A stretch of 64,000 nucleotides of DNA from Capnocytophaga leadbetteri (lineage in GTDB: Bacteria; Bacteroidota; Bacteroidia; Flavobacteriales; Flavobacteriaceae), in contig NZ_QBKG01000002.1 of NCBI RefSeq assembly GCF_003054025.1, positions 1 through 64,000 of the forward strand, given 5' to 3'. Positions 3,734 to 59,058 of the stretch are shown here, in pieces; positions within the stretch are counted from its first letter, which is position 1, and each line of letters begins with the position of its first letter. A program made the position numbers and the translations under genes. The notes beneath the pieces are model-generated. The model searched no databases and was not told the origin of the DNA. It was given only the letters and a program-made list of their open reading frames with translations.

Positions 3734-4477
3734 ATGAAATTAATAGTAAATAATATTATCAAAATCTATAAAGGTAGGAAGGTAGTGAAAGGGGTTTCGC
3801 TAGAAGTAAATCAAGGTGAAATCGTTGGGCTACTAGGGCCTAATGGGGCAGGTAAAACTACGTCATTCTATATGATAGTAGGGCTTATCAAACCCAATGG
3901 GGGTACTATCTTTTTAGATAATACAGAGATTACTCATTACCCGATGTACAAGCGTGCCCAAAGTGGAATAGGCTATTTGGCGCAAGAGGCTTCGGTATTC
4001 AGAAAATTGAGTATAGAAGACAATATCAAAAGCGTATTGCAACTCACAAAGCTCTCAAAAGCTGAGCAACAACGCAAAACAGATGAGCTGATAGATGAAT
4101 TTAGCTTGGGGCATATCCGAAAAAACCGAGGAGATTTGCTCTCAGGGGGTGAACGGCGCCGTACAGAGATAGCTCGTGCCTTAGCTACTAGTCCGAAGTT
4201 TATCCTGCTTGATGAGCCTTTTGCAGGAGTAGACCCTATAGCAGTGGAGGATATTCAGCGTATAGTGGCACAACTCAAAGATAAGAATATAGGTATTCTC
4301 ATCACAGACCACAACGTACAGGAAACTCTTGCTATTACTGACCGCACTTACCTGATGTTTGAAGGAGGGATTCTTAAATCTGGAGTGCCAGAGGAATTGG
4401 CAGCTGATGAGATGGTGAGGAAGGTATATCTTGGAAGGAATTTTGAATTGAGAAGAAAGAAAATATTGGAAGATTAG
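3734..4477 (+). CDS. lptB: LPS export ABC transporter ATP-binding protein LptB
   Basis: LptB is the cytoplasmic ATPase that powers extraction of lipopolysaccharide from the inner membrane with LptF/LptG. The 247-residue sequence has Walker A GPNGAGKTT (about 35-43), the LptB-type Q-loop region GIGYLAQEASVFRKLS, signature LSGGERRRTEIARAL (from about 136), Walker B FILLDEPFAGVDP (about 155) and switch His in ITDHNVQETL. Arg-rich LSGGERRR and the LAQEASVFRKL stretch are specific to LptB among ABC ATPases. It is only 3 bases after the preceding unknown gene, so the two are surely co-transcribed. lptF/G are not in the window. Confidence 0.95.
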   Translation: MKLIVNNIIKIYKGRKVVKGVSLEVNQGEIVGLLGPNGAGKTTSFYMIVGLIKPNGGTIFLDNTEITHYPMYKRAQSGIGYLAQEASVFRKLSIEDNIKSVLQLTKLSKAEQQRKTDELIDEFSLGHIRKNRGDLLSGGERRRTEIARALATSPKFILLDEPFAGVDPIAVEDIQRIVAQLKDKNIGILITDHNVQETLAITDRTYLMFEGGILKSGVPEELAADEMVRKVYLGRNFELRRKKILED

Positions 4478-4517
4478 CCAATTGGCAAATGAATAAAGAA
4501 TTAAAAACTATAATATA

Positions 4518-5741
4518 ATGAAAAATTTAGTAGATCGTTTTATTAAGTACATAAAAATAGATTCTCAGTCAGACCCTGAGAGTATAACAACTCCTAGTAC
4601 TAAAAAACAATGGAATATGGCAAACTTATTGGTAGAAGAACTGAAAGCCATTGGTTTGCAAGATGTGACTGTAGATGAGAATGCCTATGTAATGGCTACC
4701 TTACCATCAAATGTAGACTATGAGGTTCCTACTATTGGTTTTATCTCTCACTTCGATACTTCACCTGATTTTTCAGGAGAGAATGTAAATCCACACTTTG
4801 TAGAAAATTATGATGGGGGCGATATTGTACTTAACAAGGAACAAAATATAGTGTTATCACCTTCTTATTTTGAAGATTTATTGCTCTACAAAGGCAATAC
4901 TATTATCACAACCGATGGTACTACCCTTTTAGGAGCTGATGATAAGGCGGGGATTGCCGAAATTGTGACCGCTATGGAATACCTTGTTCACCACCCAGAA
5001 ATCAAGCACGGCAAGATACGCGTAGGTTTTACTCCGGATGAGGAAATAGGACGAGGAGCGCATAAATTTGATGTTAAGAAATTTGCGGCTGACTGGGCAT
5101 ATACGATGGACGGTGGACAAATAGGCGAACTTGAATACGAGAGTTTTAATGCTGCAGGAGCTAAGATTCACTTCAAAGGGAAAAACGTTCATCCAGGAAC
5201 TGCTAAAAACAAGATGATTAACTCAATGCTTGTTGCCAATCAGTTTATTAATGCGCTTCCTGCTGACGAGATACCTGCTCGCACTGAAGGTCGTGAGGGT
5301 TTTTATCACATTACTGATATTTCTGGAGATGTAGAAAATACAGTAGTACAACTTATTATCCGCGACCACGATCGTGATATTTTTAATAAGCGCAAAGCTT
5401 TAGTACAGCAAATAGTAGATGATCTTAACAAACAAATACCCAATGTAGCTGTAGCTGAAATAAAAGACCAATATTATAATATGGGTGAAAAAATTAAACC
5501 AGTGATGCATATTGTAGAAGTAGCTGAGCGCGCAATGAAGGAATTGGGTATCACACCTATTACAAAACCAATCCGTGGAGGTACTGATGGTTCACAACTT
5601 AGCTTTATGGGCTTGCCTTGTCCTAATATTTTTGCAGGAGGCCATAATTTTCACGGTAAATACGAGTTTGTACCTGTAGAAAACCTCGAGAAAGCTACTG
5701 AAGTGATTATTCGCATTGCTGAATTAGTAGCAAAAAAATAA
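4518..5741 (+). CDS. pepT: Peptidase T (tripeptide aminopeptidase)
   Basis: PepT removes the N-terminal residue from tripeptides in the cytoplasm and is a two-metal M20B enzyme. The 407-residue protein has the metal-binding SHFDTSPDF (about 77), [10 protein letters not shown] (about 139), the catalytic TPDEEIGRG (about 173) and the C-terminal [14 protein letters not shown] and [13 protein letters not shown] motifs (about 354-384). The dimerisation segment with [11 protein letters not shown] is also present. Length is that of the family. It starts 40 bases after lptB and is followed by a long hairpin. Confidence 0.96.
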
Positions 5742-51225: not shown

Positions 51226-51930
51226 TTATATTTTAGCAGTAGGGACTTCGCCTATTACAAAGGTATGTTTGCCCTTATCAGCTATTTTGGTGATAGTCTC
51301 TAAATATTGGAAAAACTTAATATTCTCATCGCCTTTCATTAGTTCTGAAGCGTTCTTAAGGGCTCTGGCAGTAGCTACAGCTGTACGCGCATTTTCGAGC
51401 TCGGAGGTAGCGCGTATTTTGCTTTCTAATACTCGCGAGAAGAGGTCTTGTACACTTTTAGGGAAGGTGATATCTATCAGCTGTGCTTTTATTATTTTAA
51501 GCCCCAAAGTAGCCACTTCGTTACAAAAATCTTCCTCTTTAAAGTCAGTGATGTCATTGCGACATTCATTTAGTTTTTCGCTACTGAAAGTGGCGATTTT
51601 TTGACGTAGTAATACCTGTGCAACTGCTACTATTTGCTGTTCAGCTACGGCAAAATTATCGGCTTCAACCCCGAAATTATCTACAAATAGCTTAGTATTA
51701 TCGAGTTTGTAAGCCAAGTAAAAAGAAAAGCGTAATGCGATATTATCAGCGGTCAGTACCTCCTGATTTACCACCCTTACACTTCTTAATTTTTGCGATA
51801 GTGAGATAATATGCACTTTCTCCCACGGACTAAATTTATAAATACCCGCAGATAGTTCTTGCTGAAAAACATTCTTTTTGAAGAGGAGTCCCACAGAGTT
51901 AGGAGCTACCTCTAATTCTTTGTAAAACAT
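51226..51930 (-). CDS. SPFH/band 7 domain protein (slipin-like)
   Basis: A 234-residue SPFH-domain protein. Unusually it lacks an N-terminal membrane anchor (MFYKELEVAPNSVGLLFKKNVF), and starts directly in the SPFH fold (about 5-170), with EVLTADNIALRFSFYLAYKL (about 57-76) and LIDITFPKSVQDLFSRVLESKIRATSELENARTA (about 150-185, cut) forming the band 7 helix. A coiled tail follows. It may be peripheral or a membrane-remodelling relative. Its 5' leader contains the structured element at 51959-52081. Function is open. Confidence 0.87.
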   Translation of the reverse strand: MFYKELEVAPNSVGLLFKKNVFQQELSAGIYKFSPWEKVHIISLSQKLRSVRVVNQEVLTADNIALRFSFYLAYKLDNTKLFVDNFGVEADNFAVAEQQIVAVAQVLLRQKIATFSSEKLNECRNDITDFKEEDFCNEVATLGLKIIKAQLIDITFPKSVQDLFSRVLESKIRATSELENARTAVATARALKNASELMKGDENIKFFQYLETITKIADKGKHTFVIGEVPTAKI

Positions 51931-52330
51931 ATAAATACGATTAATAAGTTAATAAAATAAGAAAGAGAAGACCTCTAAACAGAGGGAAAACCCGATTAAG
52001 CCTTTCAAAAGAGCGAAAGGCGGTATCCTCGGTTTTGCAAACTTTGTTTAGAGTGAGCTGCAGCTCTGTCTTATCTTTCTTCCCAATAATAAATACAATG
52101 GAGTCATTCCCCTTTAGTTATTCCGCAATACCTTATTTTATGAGGGGAAGACGGTTTATATAATAAGTGGCGGTTTGTTTTTCTAAATCTGTTCCTTATT
52201 TCTGAATATTGTGCTAATACTATACAAGGAAAAGGAATAAAAATAAACGGAGCATAATAGGATATGACAATTCGTAAGTTCCTATTATTTTAGAAAGCTC
52301 AAAATATATTGAATTAAAACAAACAATTTT
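51931..52330. other. Intergenic region between the RT gene and the SPFH gene
   Basis: This 400-base gap lies on the same strand as both flanking genes. It holds the three-way-junction structure (51959-52081). The rest (52082-52330) is AT-rich; I see no gene or clear promoter, only a weak -7-like TATTATTG on the minus strand near the structure's 5' end. Confidence 0.75.
51959..52081 (-). ncRNA. Structured leader RNA candidate (three-way junction) before the SPFH gene
   Basis: The outer stem pairs AAGAAAGA-G-AAGAC (51959-51972) with GTCTT-A-TCTTTCTT (52068-52081) around a one-base mismatch. Inside, one branch stacks CTCTAAAC/GTTTAGAG (51973-51980, 52046-52053), AAAACCCGA/TCGGTTTT (51987-51995, 52029-52036) and GCCTTTC/GAAAGGC (52000-52006, 52015-52021). 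The other branch is the hairpin GAGCTGCAGCTC (52055-52066). Every stem is nested and consistent. It ends 29 bases before the SPFH start, so it may be a riboswitch-like leader or a separate small RNA. I do not recognise a known class. Confidence 0.6.
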
Positions 52331-53884
52331 TTAGTGAAGAACTTTCTTTAAAATAGGTTTATGGCAATCTTTAAGTAATTTATTGATATTTTTCCAGTGT
52401 TTTTTTATTTGATTATTAATCTTATTATTAGACATCCTACTTATAGCCTTTTTTGCATAAGTTATATAGTTCCCATAATTATATGTATCATATTTATATA
52501 GCCTTTTTTCTGCCTCATTCCATACTACTTTTCTATTTCTTTTGGCTCCTTTGTAAGAGAATTTTTTTAAAATTCGCCTTCTAAAAATTGGCTCTTCATA
52601 TTTATAAGAATAAAATTTTGCTCTACTTATATATCTTTTCATTTTTCTATAATACCCTGAAAGACTTGATTTTTTTAATCTTATACTTTCGCCATCAAAT
52701 TCAAAACCTAAATATGTTAGATTTTTATTTCTATTAATAGTATCCTCAAAAATTTGTGCACATGTTAATTTATTATTCTCTCTTTTAAATTCAAATACTT
52801 GAGTTTTTGCCTCTTGTATCTCTAATTTATACTTTGTAATCTCTTCCATTACAAAATGACAAACTTCCTTTCTGTATTCATAAGTACAGATGACAATAAT
52901 ATCGTCTGAATATCTTTTATAATGCCCTCCAATCTTTTCAATATAACTATTAATATCCTTGTCAAAATCTACTAAATAGATATTTGCTAAAGTAGCACTA
53001 ATGGGGGAGCCCTGTGGAATCCCAAATGTTCTTGGTATAATTTGGTCTCCTTTTTTAATAGTTTTAAACGAATGAACTAATTTATGTTTTACCTTAAGAA
53101 ATTCCTTTTTTTCACAGAAAGCTATTGCATTTTGATTCCTTAAGAATTTTATCTTGCTAATCTTCTTTCTTTTAACTGGCTGTTGTATTCCCCTAGTTGT
53201 TATTTTTTGTGTCAGGATACTACCTTGAAAAAAACTGAATATATCCACTAAATCTACATAACTGAAACGTGTAATGTTTTTGTATATATTAAAATGATCT
53301 ATAGGTAATTTATCTACAGAAAGAACTTCTTCCCACTTTTCTCTTAATATTCTATGATCCAAGTTATCAAAAAAACTAGTAATATCAAAAGCTATTACAC
53401 AGAAAAAATCTTTAGGATATTTCTTTATTAAATCAAAAGCATCATTTGCAATCTCGATATTAGATTTATTAGTGCTATTTGGGTTATTCTCATCAATTGA
53501 GATACTTCTATAAGCACAAACAACCTCATCTAATTTATATTCCTTTATAAGTTTTTCATATTTATCAGACAACTGATAAGAATAATAACTAAAAATAAGA
53601 GAATCTAAATGACTTGCATAGAAAAGTTCTCTTTTTTTCTGACCTTTTACTCTTTGTATTTTATTAGTTCCTTCTGCCTTTATAGGATTTCCTTCCTCAT
53701 TATATTCCTTACGAAACTTACGGACTAATGAGGTTTTATGGATAAAAGGCAGGAATGAATGTTTAGCTATATTCTCAGGACTAAGTATATAAGACATTAC
53801 CCTTTTTTTATCTTTAATAGAAATAGGTCTTCCTATATGAGGGTATTTTTTTAACTTAAACCAATCCTTCTTGTTTTTTCTCAT
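52331..53884 (-). CDS. DRT2-like (UG2) antiviral reverse transcriptase
   Basis: A 517-residue RNA-directed DNA polymerase. Motif A is in FCVIAFDITSFFDNLDH (about 160-176, catalytic Asp), motif B is GIPQGSPISATLANIYL (about 286-302) and motif C is RYSDDIIVIC (about 322-331). The N-terminal block DWFKLKKYPHIGRPIS and the ASHLDSLIFSYYSY segment (about 90-103) followed by AYRSI, NKSNIEIANDAF and KLPIDHFNIYKNITRFSYVD resemble UG2/DRT2 proteins. No maturase, endonuclease or protease domain is visible. It is AT-richer than its neighbours. It starts 15 bases from the closing stem of the upstream RNA candidate. The DRT2 assignment comes from sequence pattern and locus layout; another UG class is possible. 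Confidence 0.85.
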   Translation of the reverse strand: MRKNKKDWFKLKKYPHIGRPISIKDKKRVMSYILSPENIAKHSFLPFIHKTSLVRKFRKEYNEEGNPIKAEGTNKIQRVKGQKKRELFYASHLDSLIFSYYSYQLSDKYEKLIKEYKLDEVVCAYRSISIDENNPNSTNKSNIEIANDAFDLIKKYPKDFFCVIAFDITSFFDNLDHRILREKWEEVLSVDKLPIDHFNIYKNITRFSYVDLVDIFSFFQGSILTQKITTRGIQQPVKRKKISKIKFLRNQNAIAFCEKKEFLKVKHKLVHSFKTIKKGDQIIPRTFGIPQGSPISATLANIYLVDFDKDINSYIEKIGGHYKRYSDDIIVICTYEYRKEVCHFVMEEITKYKLEIQEAKTQVFEFKRENNKLTCAQIFEDTINRNKNLTYLGFEFDGESIRLKKSSLSGYYRKMKRYISRAKFYSYKYEEPIFRRRILKKFSYKGAKRNRKVVWNEAEKRLYKYDTYNYGNYITYAKKAISRMSNNKINNQIKKHWKNINKLLKDCHKPILKKVLH

Positions 53885-54024
53885 GTTTTCTTTATAAAAA
53901 GAGTAGTGAAATCCAAATGCGGAGCCGTGCTTTTTAAGAAGATAACACTATCTTCTAGAACCATGTATGCTAATACGATATATCAATCAATTAAAAGCTG
54001 TCAATATATCACTCCGTCTTCTAT

Positions 54025-54054
54025 TTGGGTAGAAAAATATTAATGCTATATTTG
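54025..54054 (+). promoter_or_regulatory. Plus-strand promoter before repeat unit 1
   Basis: TTG at 54025-54027 (outside the repeat), a 19-base spacer and TATATTTG at 54047-54054 (inside unit 1). It would drive the ORF starting at 54079. Confidence 0.55.
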
Positions 54055-54298
54055 CACATTCGTGCTAAACCTAACATTATGAAAGTTATGTATATCATAT
54101 CTAAGATATTAACCTTAGCTGGACTTGCTCAAAGTAGAATTATTTCTCTTGAGGTTTGTCTCTATGAAATATTAATGCTATATTTGCACATTCGTGCTAA
54201 ACCTAACATTATGAAAGTTATGTATATCATATCTAAGATATTAACCTTAGCTGGACTTGCTCAAAGTAGAATTATTTCTCTTGAGGTTTGTCTCTATG
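54035..54298 (+). repeat. Exact tandem duplication of 132 bp
   Basis: Unit 1 (54035-54166) and unit 2 (54167-54298) are identical as read base by base, followed by three further bases (54299-54301) that continue the pattern. The length is 44 codons, so the plus-strand frame continues across the junction. The edges share short homology: GAAA on both sides of each junction. Confidence 0.95.
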
Positions 54299-54318
54299 AA
54301 ATGACATTTCCCTTATAG
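54079..54318 (+). CDS. Possible Neo-type repeat ORF (two units)
   Basis: Starting at ATG 54079, 25 bases after a -7 element, the frame encodes 79 residues: MKVMYIISKILTLAGLAQSR then IISLEVCLYE, the bridge ILMLYLHIRAKPNI, a second identical MKVM...CLYE block and a short tail MTFPL. Within a 132-base unit this frame has no stop, so a longer concatemer would be open indefinitely. The peptide is hydrophobic and helix-prone, as reported for Neo proteins of DRT2. It lies opposite in strand to the RT. I give low confidence to its expression from the chromosome itself. Confidence 0.4.
   Translation: MKVMYIISKILTLAGLAQSRIISLEVCLYEILMLYLHIRAKPNIMKVMYIISKILTLAGLAQSRIISLEVCLYEMTFPL
54156..54186 (+). promoter_or_regulatory. 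Promoter spanning the repeat junction
   Basis: TTG at 54156-54158 comes from the end of unit 1 and TATATTTG at 54179-54186 from the start of unit 2, with an exact 20-base spacer. Such a promoter arises at every junction of a concatemer, as described for DRT2 cDNA. Confidence 0.65.
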
Positions 54319-54418
54319 TTTTTCATATAAGGCTATAGGATTTCTCCTAACCAAAAAACACAATAGTTCGGCTATTTCACTACTCTTATATTTTCAACCT
54401 TGTATTCTAAAATCTCTG

Positions 54419-54448
54419 CAAATATACAACTAAAAACCAAAAAGGCAA
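54419..54448 (-). promoter_or_regulatory. Promoter for the RNA/RT module
   Basis: On the minus strand TTG (54448-54446), a 19-base spacer and TATATTTG (54426-54419). The -33 element lies within the carB terminator hairpin. Confidence 0.65.
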
Positions 54449-54466
54449 GCCTAGGCTTGCCCTTTT
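54440..54466 (-). terminator. Rho-independent terminator after carB
   Basis: On the minus strand GGCAAGCC and GGCTTGCC pair (54461-54454 with 54451-54444) and T residues follow. It insulates carB from the RT module. Confidence 0.85.
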
Positions 54467-54472
54467 AGTTCT

Positions 54473-57325
54473 TTATTTTGAAAGATACATCTTCCTCCTC
54501 GTATAAATCTCATAGAAAGCATCATCTTTAAGGCTATCTATAAACAAGATGCTTTCGCCAGTAGATTTCATTTCAGGTCCTAGCTTCTTATCTACATTCG
54601 GGAATTTGTTGAACGAGAACACAGGTTGCTTGATAGCAAAGCCCTCTAAGTGCGGATTGAAATGGAAATCAGTGAGTTTCTTCTCGCCAAGCATTACTTT
54701 GGTAGCGTAGTTTACGTACGGCTCTTGGTAAGCTTTAGAGATAAATGGCACCGTACGAGAGGCACGTGGGTTTGCCTCAATGATATAAACCACATCGTCT
54801 TTTACAGCAAACTGCACATTGATAAGCCCTACCGTGTTTAGTGCTAAGGCTATTTTATGAGTATGGTCTTTTATTTGTTGTAACACAAACTCACCCAAGT
54901 TGAATGGTGGCAAGGTAGCATTACTATCGCCTGAGTGAATACCACAAGGCTCTATATGCTCCATAATACCAATGATATACACATTCTCGCCATCACAAAT
55001 AGCATCAGCTTCAGCTTCTATGGCGCCATCGAGATAATGGTCGAGTAGTAGTTTGTTGTTAGGTATCTTGCGTAAGAGGTCTACTACGTGTGCTTCCAAC
55101 TCTTCTTTGTTGATAACAATCTTCATACCTTGCCCACCCAATACATACGAAGGACGCACGAGTAGCGGAAAGTCAAGTTCATCAGCAAGTTTGAGCGCCT
55201 CATCAGCGGTTTCAGCCACACCAAAACGAGGATAAGGAATATTATTCTCTTTCAGCAGGGTTGAAAAACTACCTCTATCTTCTGCCAAGTCAAGCGACTG
55301 GAAGCTAGTACCTATAATTTTAATCCCATATTTATCTAATTTCTCAGCCAATTTCAAGGCTGTTTGTCCGCCAAGCTGTACAATTACTCCCTCTGGCTTT
55401 TCGTGTTGAATAATATCATAGATGTACTCCCAGAACACAGGCTCAAAATAGAGTTTGTTAGCCGTATCAAAGTCGGTAGAAACAGTCTCAGGGTTGCAGT
55501 TGATCATTATGGTTTCATAACCGCACTCTTCAGCAGCCAATACCCCGTGCACACAGCAGTAGTCGAACTCAATACCTTGCCCTATGCGATTAGGACCTGA
55601 ACCGAGTACTACCACCTTTTTGCGGTCGGTTACTACGCTGTCGTTAGCTACATATTCCTTGCCGTCAGCGGTGCGTATAGGAGCCTCAAAAGTAGAGTAG
55701 TAGTAGGGGGTCTGTGCCTTAAACTCAGCAGCACAAGTGTCTACCAATTTAAACACACGACGTATGTTCAGTTCCTCACGCTTCTTGTGTACCTCACTCT
55801 CCCAACAGCCCAGCATATAAGCTATTTGTCGGTCGGCAAACCCTTTTTGTTTGGCTTCAAAAAGGAGTTCTTTAGGTAGGGTGTCTATCTTGTAGCGAGA
55901 TATTTCTTTTTCGAGCGCACAGAGTTCTTCATATTGTTTGAGGAACCACATATCTATCTTGGTAATTTCGTGTATGCGGCTTAACGGAATACCCATCTGT
56001 ACCGCATCGTATATTACGAATACCCTATCCCAGCTGGGGTAGGTTAGTTTTTCAATAATCTGTTCGTAGTTCTTATAGCCTTTGCCATCTGCCCCTAAAC
56101 CATTGCGTTTGATTTCAAGCGATTGAGTTGCTTTCTGCAATGCCTCTTGGAAAGAACGCCCTATACCCATTACCTCACCTACCGACTTCATTTGCAAGCC
56201 AATAGTACGGTCAGAACCTTCGAACTTGTCAAAGTTCCAACGCGGTATTTTCACAATCACATAATCCAATGTAGGCTCAAAGAAAGCGGAAGTGGATTTA
56301 GTGATTTGGTTTTGCAATTCGTCTAAATGATAGCCAATAGCCAGTTTGGTAGCAATCTTAGCAATAGGATAACCTGTAGCCTTAGAAGCCAAAGCCGAAG
56401 AGCGCGATACACGTGGGTTAATTTCAATAGCGATAATATCTTCCTTTTCATCAGGCGATACCGCAAACTGCACATTGCAACCGCCGGCAAAATCGCCTAT
56501 ACTACGCATCATCTTAATAGCCATATCGCGCATACGTTGGAAAGTGCGGTCAGATAGAGTCATCGCAGGAGCTACAGTAATAGAATCCCCCGTGTGGATA
56601 CCCATAGGGTCCATATTTTCAATGGTACAGATAATGGCCACATTGTCGTTCTTGTCGCGCAAAAGTTCGAGCTCGTATTCCTTCCAGCCTAAAAGGGCTT
56701 TATCGATAAGCACCTCGTGGATAGGCGAGGCTTCCAAACCGCGATTGAGGAGCATATCAAAATCCTCTTTTTTATAGACGATAGAAGCTCCTGTACCGCC
56801 CAAAGTAAAAGACGGACGTATTACTAACGGAAAACCAAAGCGTTGTGCGATTTCTTTTCCTTTGAGGAAAGAAGTAGCTGTTTCAGACGGTGCCATTGGG
56901 ATACCAATCTGGTCAAGCAGTATCCGGAACTTCTCGCGGTCTTCAGTGATTTGTATGGCATCAATATCTACCCCGATGATTTCAACCCCAAAGTCTTTCC
57001 AGATACCTTTTTCATCAGCCTCAATACAAAGGTTCAGAGCGGTTTGTCCGCCCATTGTAGGGAGTACAGCATCTATTTCAGGGTGAGCTTTTAGAATTTC
57101 CACTAATGATTTAGTAGTGAGAGGTTTCAGATAGACCACATCCGCCATAGAGGGGTCTGTCATAATGGTAGCAGGGTTAGAGTTAATAAGTATGGTTTTG
57201 ATACCATCTTCGCGCAAAGAGCGCAATGATTGCGAGCCTGAGTAGTCGAACTCGCAGGCTTGTCCGATGATAATAGGTCCTGATCCTATGAGCAGAACAC
57301 AATGTAGGTCGTTTCTTCTTGGCAT
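54473..57325 (-). CDS. carB: Carbamoyl phosphate synthase large subunit
   Basis: CarB makes carbamoyl phosphate from bicarbonate, ammonia and two ATP for arginine and pyrimidines. The start at ATG 57325 (MPRRNDLHCVLLIGSGPIII) gives 950 residues; a TTG at 57361 would overlap the upstream gene. Both ATP-grasp halves are clear: GGTGASIVYKKEDF, TMGGQTALNLCIE in the first and VVLGSGPNRIGQGIEFDYCC (about 584-603), VQLGGQTALKLAEKL, GGQGMKIVINKEEL in the second. The end is short: the C-terminal MGS-like regulatory domain found in enterobacterial CarB (about 1070 residues) is missing, as is usual in Flavobacteriia. carA is not adjacent. Confidence 0.96.
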   Translation of the reverse strand: MPRRNDLHCVLLIGSGPIIIGQACEFDYSGSQSLRSLREDGIKTILINSNPATIMTDPSMADVVYLKPLTTKSLVEILKAHPEIDAVLPTMGGQTALNLCIEADEKGIWKDFGVEIIGVDIDAIQITEDREKFRILLDQIGIPMAPSETATSFLKGKEIAQRFGFPLVIRPSFTLGGTGASIVYKKEDFDMLLNRGLEASPIHEVLIDKALLGWKEYELELLRDKNDNVAIICTIENMDPMGIHTGDSITVAPAMTLSDRTFQRMRDMAIKMMRSIGDFAGGCNVQFAVSPDEKEDIIAIEINPRVSRSSALASKATGYPIAKIATKLAIGYHLDELQNQITKSTSAFFEPTLDYVIVKIPRWNFDKFEGSDRTIGLQMKSVGEVMGIGRSFQEALQKATQSLEIKRNGLGADGKGYKNYEQIIEKLTYPSWDRVFVIYDAVQMGIPLSRIHEITKIDMWFLKQYEELCALEKEISRYKIDTLPKELLFEAKQKGFADRQIAYMLGCWESEVHKKREELNIRRVFKLVDTCAAEFKAQTPYYYSTFEAPIRTADGKEYVANDSVVTDRKKVVVLGSGPNRIGQGIEFDYCCVHGVLAAEECGYETIMINCNPETVSTDFDTANKLYFEPVFWEYIYDIIQHEKPEGVIVQLGGQTALKLAEKLDKYGIKIIGTSFQSLDLAEDRGSFSTLLKENNIPYPRFGVAETADEALKLADELDFPLLVRPSYVLGGQGMKIVINKEELEAHVVDLLRKIPNNKLLLDHYLDGAIEAEADAICDGENVYIIGIMEHIEPCGIHSGDSNATLPPFNLGEFVLQQIKDHTHKIALALNTVGLINVQFAVKDDVVYIIEANPRASRTVPFISKAYQEPYVNYATKVMLGEKKLTDFHFNPHLEGFAIKQPVFSFNKFPNVDKKLGPEMKSTGESILFIDSLKDDAFYEIYTRRKMYLSK

Positions 57326-57348
57326 TTTATATAGATATTGCTGTGTTT

Positions 57349-59058
57349 TTATTTTTTCCAAATTTGCTTAGCTTTTTCATATAAGAATAAAGCTCTTTCT
57401 TCTATTGTTTTTTCATCCCATTCAGGATATTCTAAGAATTGACTAATAGTCTTAAGTCCTCCTGAATATTCTATCAATCCTCCCTTTTTATTTTTTCCTT
57501 TTAGTTTATCTTCCCATTTACTATCTCTTATAGATGAATTTAAAGATTGAGTTATAATCGTTAGGTTACCTAATGTTAATAATTTACGATCTCTATTTAT
57601 CTCACTTTCTTTAGAAGATAGTTTATCCCAATTATTTCTCCATTTCTTAGGCATTAAATGTTCTAAGCTATACTTGTTTATTCCTAAAAGAGCTGTAGAA
57701 TCTTTTTCATTTCTAATTTTAGATTCTATAAGATAGAGTATACCTGCTGATTGTTTGTTAATCAATATAGATGTGTTAAAGCCTTTTTCAAGTTCATCAT
57801 CAGTAGGAAGAAAGTTTACTTTATCATCTCTTTTTTCTATATAATCTAAAAACTCTTGTTTAGATAAAACTCTATTATTTATCAACTTATCAGTAAATAA
57901 CTGATTGTAGTTTTTAGTGTTAGAATGAGTAATCATTCTTCTCATTATGTAGGTTTCAATAATACCAAATAACTCATTCTTAGTTGTCTCATCCGAAATG
58001 TTTCTAAGAATATAAAGAGTATAAGGTATTAATGTAGTGGTGTCTAACCCAAAAATAATAGTATTAATACGGTCTATTCCAAAATCTTGGGTAAGCTCTT
58101 CTCCTAATATTTCGTAGTTGAAGTTTTTCTTAAATAGCAAAGCATATTCTTTTATCTCTGATAAAATAGCTTCCTTATTATCATTAAGATAGCTCTTTAT
58201 AAAGTTTTTATAAGATTCAAAAAGATGCTCTACTTTTGCATATGCATCCTTATCTTCTGCTTTTACTTTAAAATCAGTCTCTTGAATTTTTATTTGTAGA
58301 TAGGCAAAGAAAAATAGGTCAATAAATGTTCTTCTTAACCGACCTGCAATTATTTCTCTATCCCAATAATTTTTGGTTTCCTCGTCTTTCTCAAAAACTT
58401 CTTTCCAATATTCATTATATTTTTCAATATCATCTCTATTGAAAAAATAATTTTTAAGGAGTTCTGCAGTAGTAAGTTTAACTCCTAACGAGTTGATTGT
58501 GTCAAAAATTTGTTGCTCATCTTCATCTTGGCTTAGGTCTATTCCTACAAACAATACGTTTGAAAGGATACTATCTAAATTGAGTTTATTTGGAACTAAA
58601 TTATCTTTAAAGTAATTATAGGCTTGAGTAATGTTGCTTTCACCTTCTAAATCTTTTAACTCTGTTAGTGCTAATATTTCATTGAATGCCTTAATATCAT
58701 TGTGGTTATGTAATAAGGCATTGCTATTATCTCTTAACTTAAAACTTCTATCGAATGTAGAATTTTCATTTGTTTTTAAGCATAGTACTTTAAAAAAAAT
58801 ATTAAGTGTAGTGAGCCTTTGTTGTCCATCTATCACAGTTCTTTTGTCTCCAATTCTTGCCCCAGTGGTAGTTTCCTGCTGTTTTAATATTACAGATCCT
58901 AAAAAGTAAGGTTTGTTAGATTCAGTAATATCTTTCATATCTTCTAATAATCGTTCCCATTGAGGTTGCCCCCATACATAGGCTCTTTGAAAAAAAGGAA
59001 TCTCTAAAACACGATTCCCATTGAAAATATCATTAATGGTTCTTTTTCCAGCATCCAT
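57349..59058 (-). CDS. DUF262/DUF1524 protein (GmrSD-type restriction family)
   Basis: A 569-residue protein with the DUF262 domain at the N-terminus: IPFFQRAYVWGQPQWERLLEDM (cut; about 18-39) and the defining RTVIDGQQRLTTLN (about 70-83), a ParB-like NTP-using fold. The C-terminus has a DUF1524 HNH-like nuclease region: SLEHLMPKKW (about 463-472) and GNLTIITQSLNSSIRDSKWEDK (cut; about 498-519). This fusion is that of GmrSD type IV modification-dependent restriction enzymes and related defence proteins. It is AT-rich and lies beside carB. The substrate DNA modification is unknown. Confidence 0.85.
   Translation of the reverse strand: MDAGKRTINDIFNGNRVLEIPFFQRAYVWGQPQWERLLEDMKDITESNKPYFLGSVILKQQETTTGARIGDKRTVIDGQQRLTTLNIFFKVLCLKTNENSTFDRSFKLRDNSNALLHNHNDIKAFNEILALTELKDLEGESNITQAYNYFKDNLVPNKLNLDSILSNVLFVGIDLSQDEDEQQIFDTINSLGVKLTTAELLKNYFFNRDDIEKYNEYWKEVFEKDEETKNYWDREIIAGRLRRTFIDLFFFAYLQIKIQETDFKVKAEDKDAYAKVEHLFESYKNFIKSYLNDNKEAILSEIKEYALLFKKNFNYEILGEELTQDFGIDRINTIIFGLDTTTLIPYTLYILRNISDETTKNELFGIIETYIMRRMITHSNTKNYNQLFTDKLINNRVLSKQEFLDYIEKRDDKVNFLPTDDELEKGFNTSILINKQSAGILYLIESKIRNEKDSTALLGINKYSLEHLMPKKWRNNWDKLSSKESEINRDRKLLTLGNLTIITQSLNSSIRDSKWEDKLKGKNKKGGLIEYSGGLKTISQFLEYPEWDEKTIEERALFLYEKAKQIWKK

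Follow-up and report, generated by a model that had tools for sequence, protein, structure and literature searches.

In the DRT2 system of Klebsiella pneumoniae, as described in PMC11100668 and PMC12039810, a single reverse transcriptase (RT) gene stands behind a structured non-coding RNA (ncRNA) whose template of ~120 nt lies between a handle and a scaffold. The template gives rise to concatemers of complementary DNA (cDNA) in which promoter halves from opposite template ends meet at each junction and one antisense, stop-free frame of 3n nt passes through all repeats as a never-ending open reading frame (neo) with a predicted helical product, Neo. The same arrangement is found or predicted on the minus strand at 52331–54448 of the 64,000-nt stretch analysed here (hereafter the window), which comes from Capnocytophaga leadbetteri (assembly GCF_003054025.1, contig NZ_QBKG01000002.1, positions 1 to 64,000), a draft assembly of 2.64 Mb in 40 contigs. 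Unlike the Klebsiella system, which has ACA at its template ends and a sigma-70 promoter, this locus has AUU(U) and a Bacteroidota-type promoter; its RT has 517 amino acids (aa) versus 425, the template measures 132–162 nt in its clade versus 120 nt, and the window holds two template copies. Judged from sequence, the RT and its RNA make a convincing DRT2 system of an already known kind, while the doubled template together with an AUU(U)-bounded Bacteroidota neo appears to be new here and to make the locus a new variant. The stem 'duplicat' is not found in PMC12039810, PMC11100668, PMC12596737, or PMC12632851 (main texts); supplements and most subscription papers lie outside this scope, so that a doubled template or a Bacteroidota Neo may have been published there. 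We consider it very probable that this Bacteroidota anti-phage system works like Klebsiella DRT2, with the neo template held twice in the RNA. The analysis itself establishes the class of the RT, the RNA structure through its covariation, the length and open frame of the unit, the promoter-like sequence at the junction, and the exactness of the duplication in the assembly; defence, Neo toxicity, transcription, and the making of cDNA with jumps at AUUU are inferred.

Positions 54035–54302 form a perfect two-copy tandem repeat with a period of 132, a feature absent from a preliminary description of this DNA. As both of its ends share ATTT, the 132-bp repeat gives a self-match of 136 bp. No other exact direct repeat of 40 bp or longer (period 20–2000) occurs in the window, no other array there reaches a score of 100 in Tandem Repeats Finder, and no second site of the unit was found in the draft genome at E values up to 0.001. 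The duplication accounts for much of the unusual length of the RNA. Template copy 1 (54171–54302, minus strand, 132 nt) starts with AUUU-1, and the identical copy 2 (54039–54170, minus strand, 132 nt) starts with an internal AUUU and is followed by AUUU-2 (54035–54038, minus strand), the predicted acceptor for template jumping given the ATT/ATTT at both template ends; the repeat itself is exact and the bounds of the unit were taken from relatives. Both breakpoints of the duplication coincide with the two template-end AUUU sites. Among 55 DRT2 upstream regions (42 including the window, plus 13 fetched later), the window stands alone in having such a duplication, with a score of 136 versus at most 15 elsewhere. 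Duplicate records of the same locus (L002, L015, L042, L043, L057, and L064) were dropped before counting, and the count leaves out L056, a match without RT start, RT hits too weak for the E limit applied, and all but three of the 26 phage and plasmid records.

The closest named locus found, that of Capnocytophaga sp. oral taxon 338 (L018), shares the position after carB, the scaffold, the 132-nt unit, its frame, and the junction promoter, with an RT identity of 89–94%. Unlike the window, it holds a single template copy, at the same place, lacking copy 2; its RT (4001–5550) is frameshifted near codon 84, perhaps a broken copy or a sequencing error; that of the window is intact. The two copies in the window are identical, whereas 14 of the 132 nt in the unit are different in oral taxon 338, so the duplication, if real, is recent. 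RNA-templated addition of tandem DNA repeats is also a trait of DRT10 and telomerase, as set out in PMC12039810 and PMC12632851. These are other RT classes with a non-coding repeat, and telomerase RNA contains one complete repeat and part of another for alignment, whereas the template here comprises two full coding units.

The assignment of the RT (52331–53884, minus strand) to DRT2 (UG2) in the preliminary description is borne out by the PADLOC profiles, which gave Drt2 with 461.2 bits (1.2e-138) and RT_UG17 as the next class with 76 bits; the motifs FDITSFFDNLDH, GIPQGSP, and YSDD named there are all present in the 517-aa reading frame. By sequence, the nearest solved structures are the Drt2-type entries 9lje (E 8e-62) and 9c0i (E 5e-61). 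Among viral contigs, no relative was found by protein, and a 32-nt scaffold pattern had no exact match. Four relatives' RT matches (L023, L024, L065, and L066) each contain one internal stop, which marks either an early C-terminal end or damage.

The structured RNA lies upstream of the RT gene on the same strand, in the order that had been claimed for it, and is itself preceded by the predicted promoter-like element, TTG-N19-TATATTTG (54419–54448, minus strand), as read from the sequence. We take its TTG to be the −33 half of a Bacteroidota promoter. The TAnnTTTG −7 box matches the flavobacterial sigma-A consensus (PMC9723704). A closing stem of 19 bp had also been proposed; the stem, AAGAGTAGTGAAAT / ATTTCACTACTCTT, is present, but it has 14 uninterrupted pairs (53899–53912 with 54374–54387). 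The ncRNA folds better than 100 of 100 shuffles (z −4.59). Since a whole-RNA MAFFT alignment misplaced the Capnocytophaga template end, template-free scaffolds of 12 loci were aligned instead, yielding 91.1% of cells paired and 30 of 48 consensus pairs covarying, figures that are not probabilities because the aligned rows are related. Slid controls reached 38–47% paired cells and 11–15 covarying pairs, dealt controls at most 82.2% and 26 pairs in 500 rounds. Common to the 12 loci are, among other elements, the closing stem, a handle helix that pairs with the 3' part, and a hairpin before the template. Stem arms and covariation thereby delimit a 5' handle (54303–54387, minus strand), made of the 5' arm of the closing stem, the handle helix, and the pre-template hairpin, and covariation a 3' scaffold (53899–54034, minus strand) that includes the 3' arm.

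Single-copy relatives allowed the template bounds to be predicted as the AUU(U) after the 5' hairpin and the AUU(U) just before a conserved CCC...GGRGYG element. In all eight loci used to set these bounds the unit is 132–162 nt long and divisible by three, antisense frame 1 is open through the junction (probability of openness 0.0035–0.041 per locus, dinucleotide shuffles), and the junction forms TTG-N20/21-TAnnTT(T/G). As the bounds had been adjusted on these eight, they were applied unchanged to the loci fetched later: three of three with both anchors passed, as did a fourth after its 5' anchor had been relaxed by hand, and the other nine (six from the genus search, three plasmid), none of which has both anchors, fall outside the bounds rule. 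The rule covers 12 close-clade loci, which are not independent because some are near-duplicates (for example L065 and L066); a further 34 regions lie outside it, several visibly with other RNA types. All 12 have a 3n unit, an antisense frame open across the repeats, and, in silico, this promoter-like TTG-N20/21-TAnnTT(T/G) element formed at the junction, whose −7 box is the full TAnnTTTG in six, TAnnTTT in five (L068 by eye), and TAnnTTG in one. A Met occurs at unit residue 10–14 in 12/12, and ATT/ATTT is common to both template ends in 12/12, partly through the anchor rule used. Other Bacteroidota DRT2 loci (L003, L025–L033, L069–L074) have different-looking upstream RNAs without AUU(U) anchors.

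On the preferred reading, the RT would bind the RNA through the 5' handle and the 3' scaffold and, upon phage infection, copy from AUUU-2 across template copies 2 and 1 as far as AUUU-1, which adjoins the handle, where the nascent AAAT end would realign on AUUU-2 and the cycle repeat. It is speculated in PMC12039810 that nearness to tightly bound RNA elements, rather than the motif alone, stalls the RT, and on that view the internal AUUU would be read through, adding two units per jump. Given two identical copies of exactly one unit each, the endless 132-nt repeat would be no different from that made on a single template. Every junction in the double-stranded repeats would carry a Bacteroidota-type promoter, the frame would run on without end at 44 aa per unit, and the Neo protein produced would arrest the cell.

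Owing to the duplication, one such promoter-like junction element, TTTG-N20-TATATTTG, lies in the chromosome (54155–54186, plus strand), and the chromosome thus appears to carry a pre-joined neo dimer. An antisense frame of 79 aa (54079–54318, plus strand) covers ~1.8 neo repeats and stops in the 5' handle. It is preceded by a second promoter-like element, TTTG-N19-TATATTTG (54024–54054, plus strand), which has its −33 part in the scaffold, is independent of the duplication, and has counterparts in 5/12 loci. The pattern TTTG-N18-22-TAnnTTTG occurs 24 times in the window versus 2.45 expected, suggesting that it is meaningful there. Modelled from a single sequence, the 97-aa two-repeat frame comes out as entirely helical at modest confidence (mean predicted local distance difference test score 65.8, predicted template modelling score 0.43), in agreement with the fold proposed for Neo in PMC11100668; the frame matched no Pfam family at E 0.001. 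Hydrophobicity exceeds that of at least 95% of own shuffles in 8/12 Neo units, the others being those of the window, L018, L020, and L068. Neo toxicity is described as increasing with repeat number (PMC11100668, PMC12039810), so the dimer may sit at the edge of tolerance: one of the DRT2 studies describes arrest in liquid culture from two repeats and reduced colony counts on plates with a single repeat already, the other arrest only with three.

Several results weigh against a DRT2 system with a doubled neo template. The RT scores 369.5 bits with the NCBIfam Drt2 model (NF041746), below the curated cut-off of 390, and in 0/12 close-clade loci does ACA lie 4 nt or less from each end of the template, AUU(U) being present instead, so that the system is not placed in the ACA (KpnDRT2-type) subgroup. 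Both observations would suit an RT that is not DRT2 and belongs to another UG class, the retrons, or the group II introns; this we regard as ruled out for practical purposes, as the next PADLOC class scores 385 bits below Drt2, the closest solved structures are Drt2-type, and a neo-like unit is found in 12/12 close-clade loci. We read the missed cut-off as a database threshold rather than a biological definition of the family. Further points against are the Rfam result, three tRNAs only in the whole window and no family matched by the ncRNA at gathering threshold, and the history of the bounds, as the first 3' anchor pattern missed two of the eight loci and was then widened. The open frame by itself leaves the jump base unfixed, since shifts by three stay open too. 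Nine of ten codons changed between the units of the window and L018 are non-synonymous, and the Neo sequence is not visibly conserved. Given the scaffold-side element, concatenation does not clearly seem to be needed for a promoter here; the notion that the promoter appears only on concatenation was dropped, the scaffold-side match existing in the window without joining. Finally, the duplication may be absent from the real genome.

Slippage, recapture of cDNA, or an assembly loop fed by cDNA would each give the observed structure. We give somewhat less than an even chance to an ordinary origin, in which slippage or recombination from one AUUU site to the other duplicated the unit of a single-copy RNA gene in tandem. 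It agrees with the 4-nt match (ATTT) at both breakpoints, with identical and hence recent copies, and with the finding of a single case among 55 regions, the pattern that a sporadic event would produce. As the added unit is exact and in frame, the concatemer would stay as it was, and the change would have little or no selective effect. The weak point of this origin is the choice of breakpoints, which represent one of 236 direct repeats of at least 4 nt (spacing 60–250) in the single-copy RNA and one of the 27 among them that yield an open antisense concatemer, although functional selection could explain this choice. Unit and junction also match the product expected from template jumping between AUUU-1 and AUUU-2, and abundant double-stranded concatemers upon infection are described in PMC11100668 and PMC12039810. 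RT-made double-stranded cDNA could have entered the template in the chromosome by recombination, lengthening it by exactly one unit, an origin that we hold possible yet unlikely, as no stray copy was found elsewhere in the genome in the search at E up to 0.001, slippage yields an identical end product, and none of the other 54 regions has the duplication. Less likely again is an assembly artefact, in which reads of cDNA concatemers in the culture made the assembler write the unit twice over a chromosome with one copy. The fragmentation of the draft into 40 contigs, a repeat period close to common short-read lengths, the uniqueness among 55 regions, and the presence of some repeat cDNA even in uninfected cells (reported in PMC11100668 and PMC12039810) would fit such an error, but the contig crosses the repeat cleanly, the copies number exactly two, and no match turned up in the rest of the assembly. 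In a further-reaching form of the recapture reading, against which we would bet firmly, the chromosome has taken back the system's own concatemeric cDNA, so that a hidden permuted-template gene was rewritten as a promoter-bearing dimer. Two copies may then be the tolerable limit because a third would give a chromosomal, promoter-driven multi-repeat neo, and a single jump would yield an already toxic length.

On the minus strand, the unit lies between a gene that is presumably carB, as named from its sequence (54473–57361), and a Band 7/SPFH gene (51226–51930), in the order carB, ncRNA, RT, SPFH gene, as the preliminary description had placed it. With these two genes as neighbours, the DRT2 unit has no added effector gene. 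A GmrSD-type (DUF262) restriction gene (57349–59058, minus strand; GmrSD_N 2e-36, GmrSD_C 1.6e-16), also matched by the PADLOC models Orf5 and HEC-06, adjoins carB, which suggests a possible small cluster of defence genes around carB. In the genus-mate G001 (L060, ~2446), the sequence upstream of the SPFH gene abuts a stretch like window positions 54414–54451 (38 bp, 89%). Compared with window positions 52184–54413, this junction looks like an empty site without DRT2. Homology of L058, L059, and L061 to the window likewise ends at 52190–52198.

Toxicity or instability of a neo already assembled in the chromosome has been suggested as the reason why the gene is kept hidden (PMC11100668, PMC12039810). 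If real, the duplication described here would be a natural exception to the hidden neo, a joined dimer with a junction promoter beside an intact RT gene. The locus thereby makes it possible to ask why the RT halts where the template ends and not at a jump motif inside it, what number of neo units in the genome is still tolerated, and whether cDNA made by DRT2 can return to the chromosome. Annotation of Neo is called 'more challenging' in divergent clades in PMC11100668, and with the AUU(U)-bounded unit Neo could be read by a simple rule in one DRT2 clade of the Flavobacteriales.
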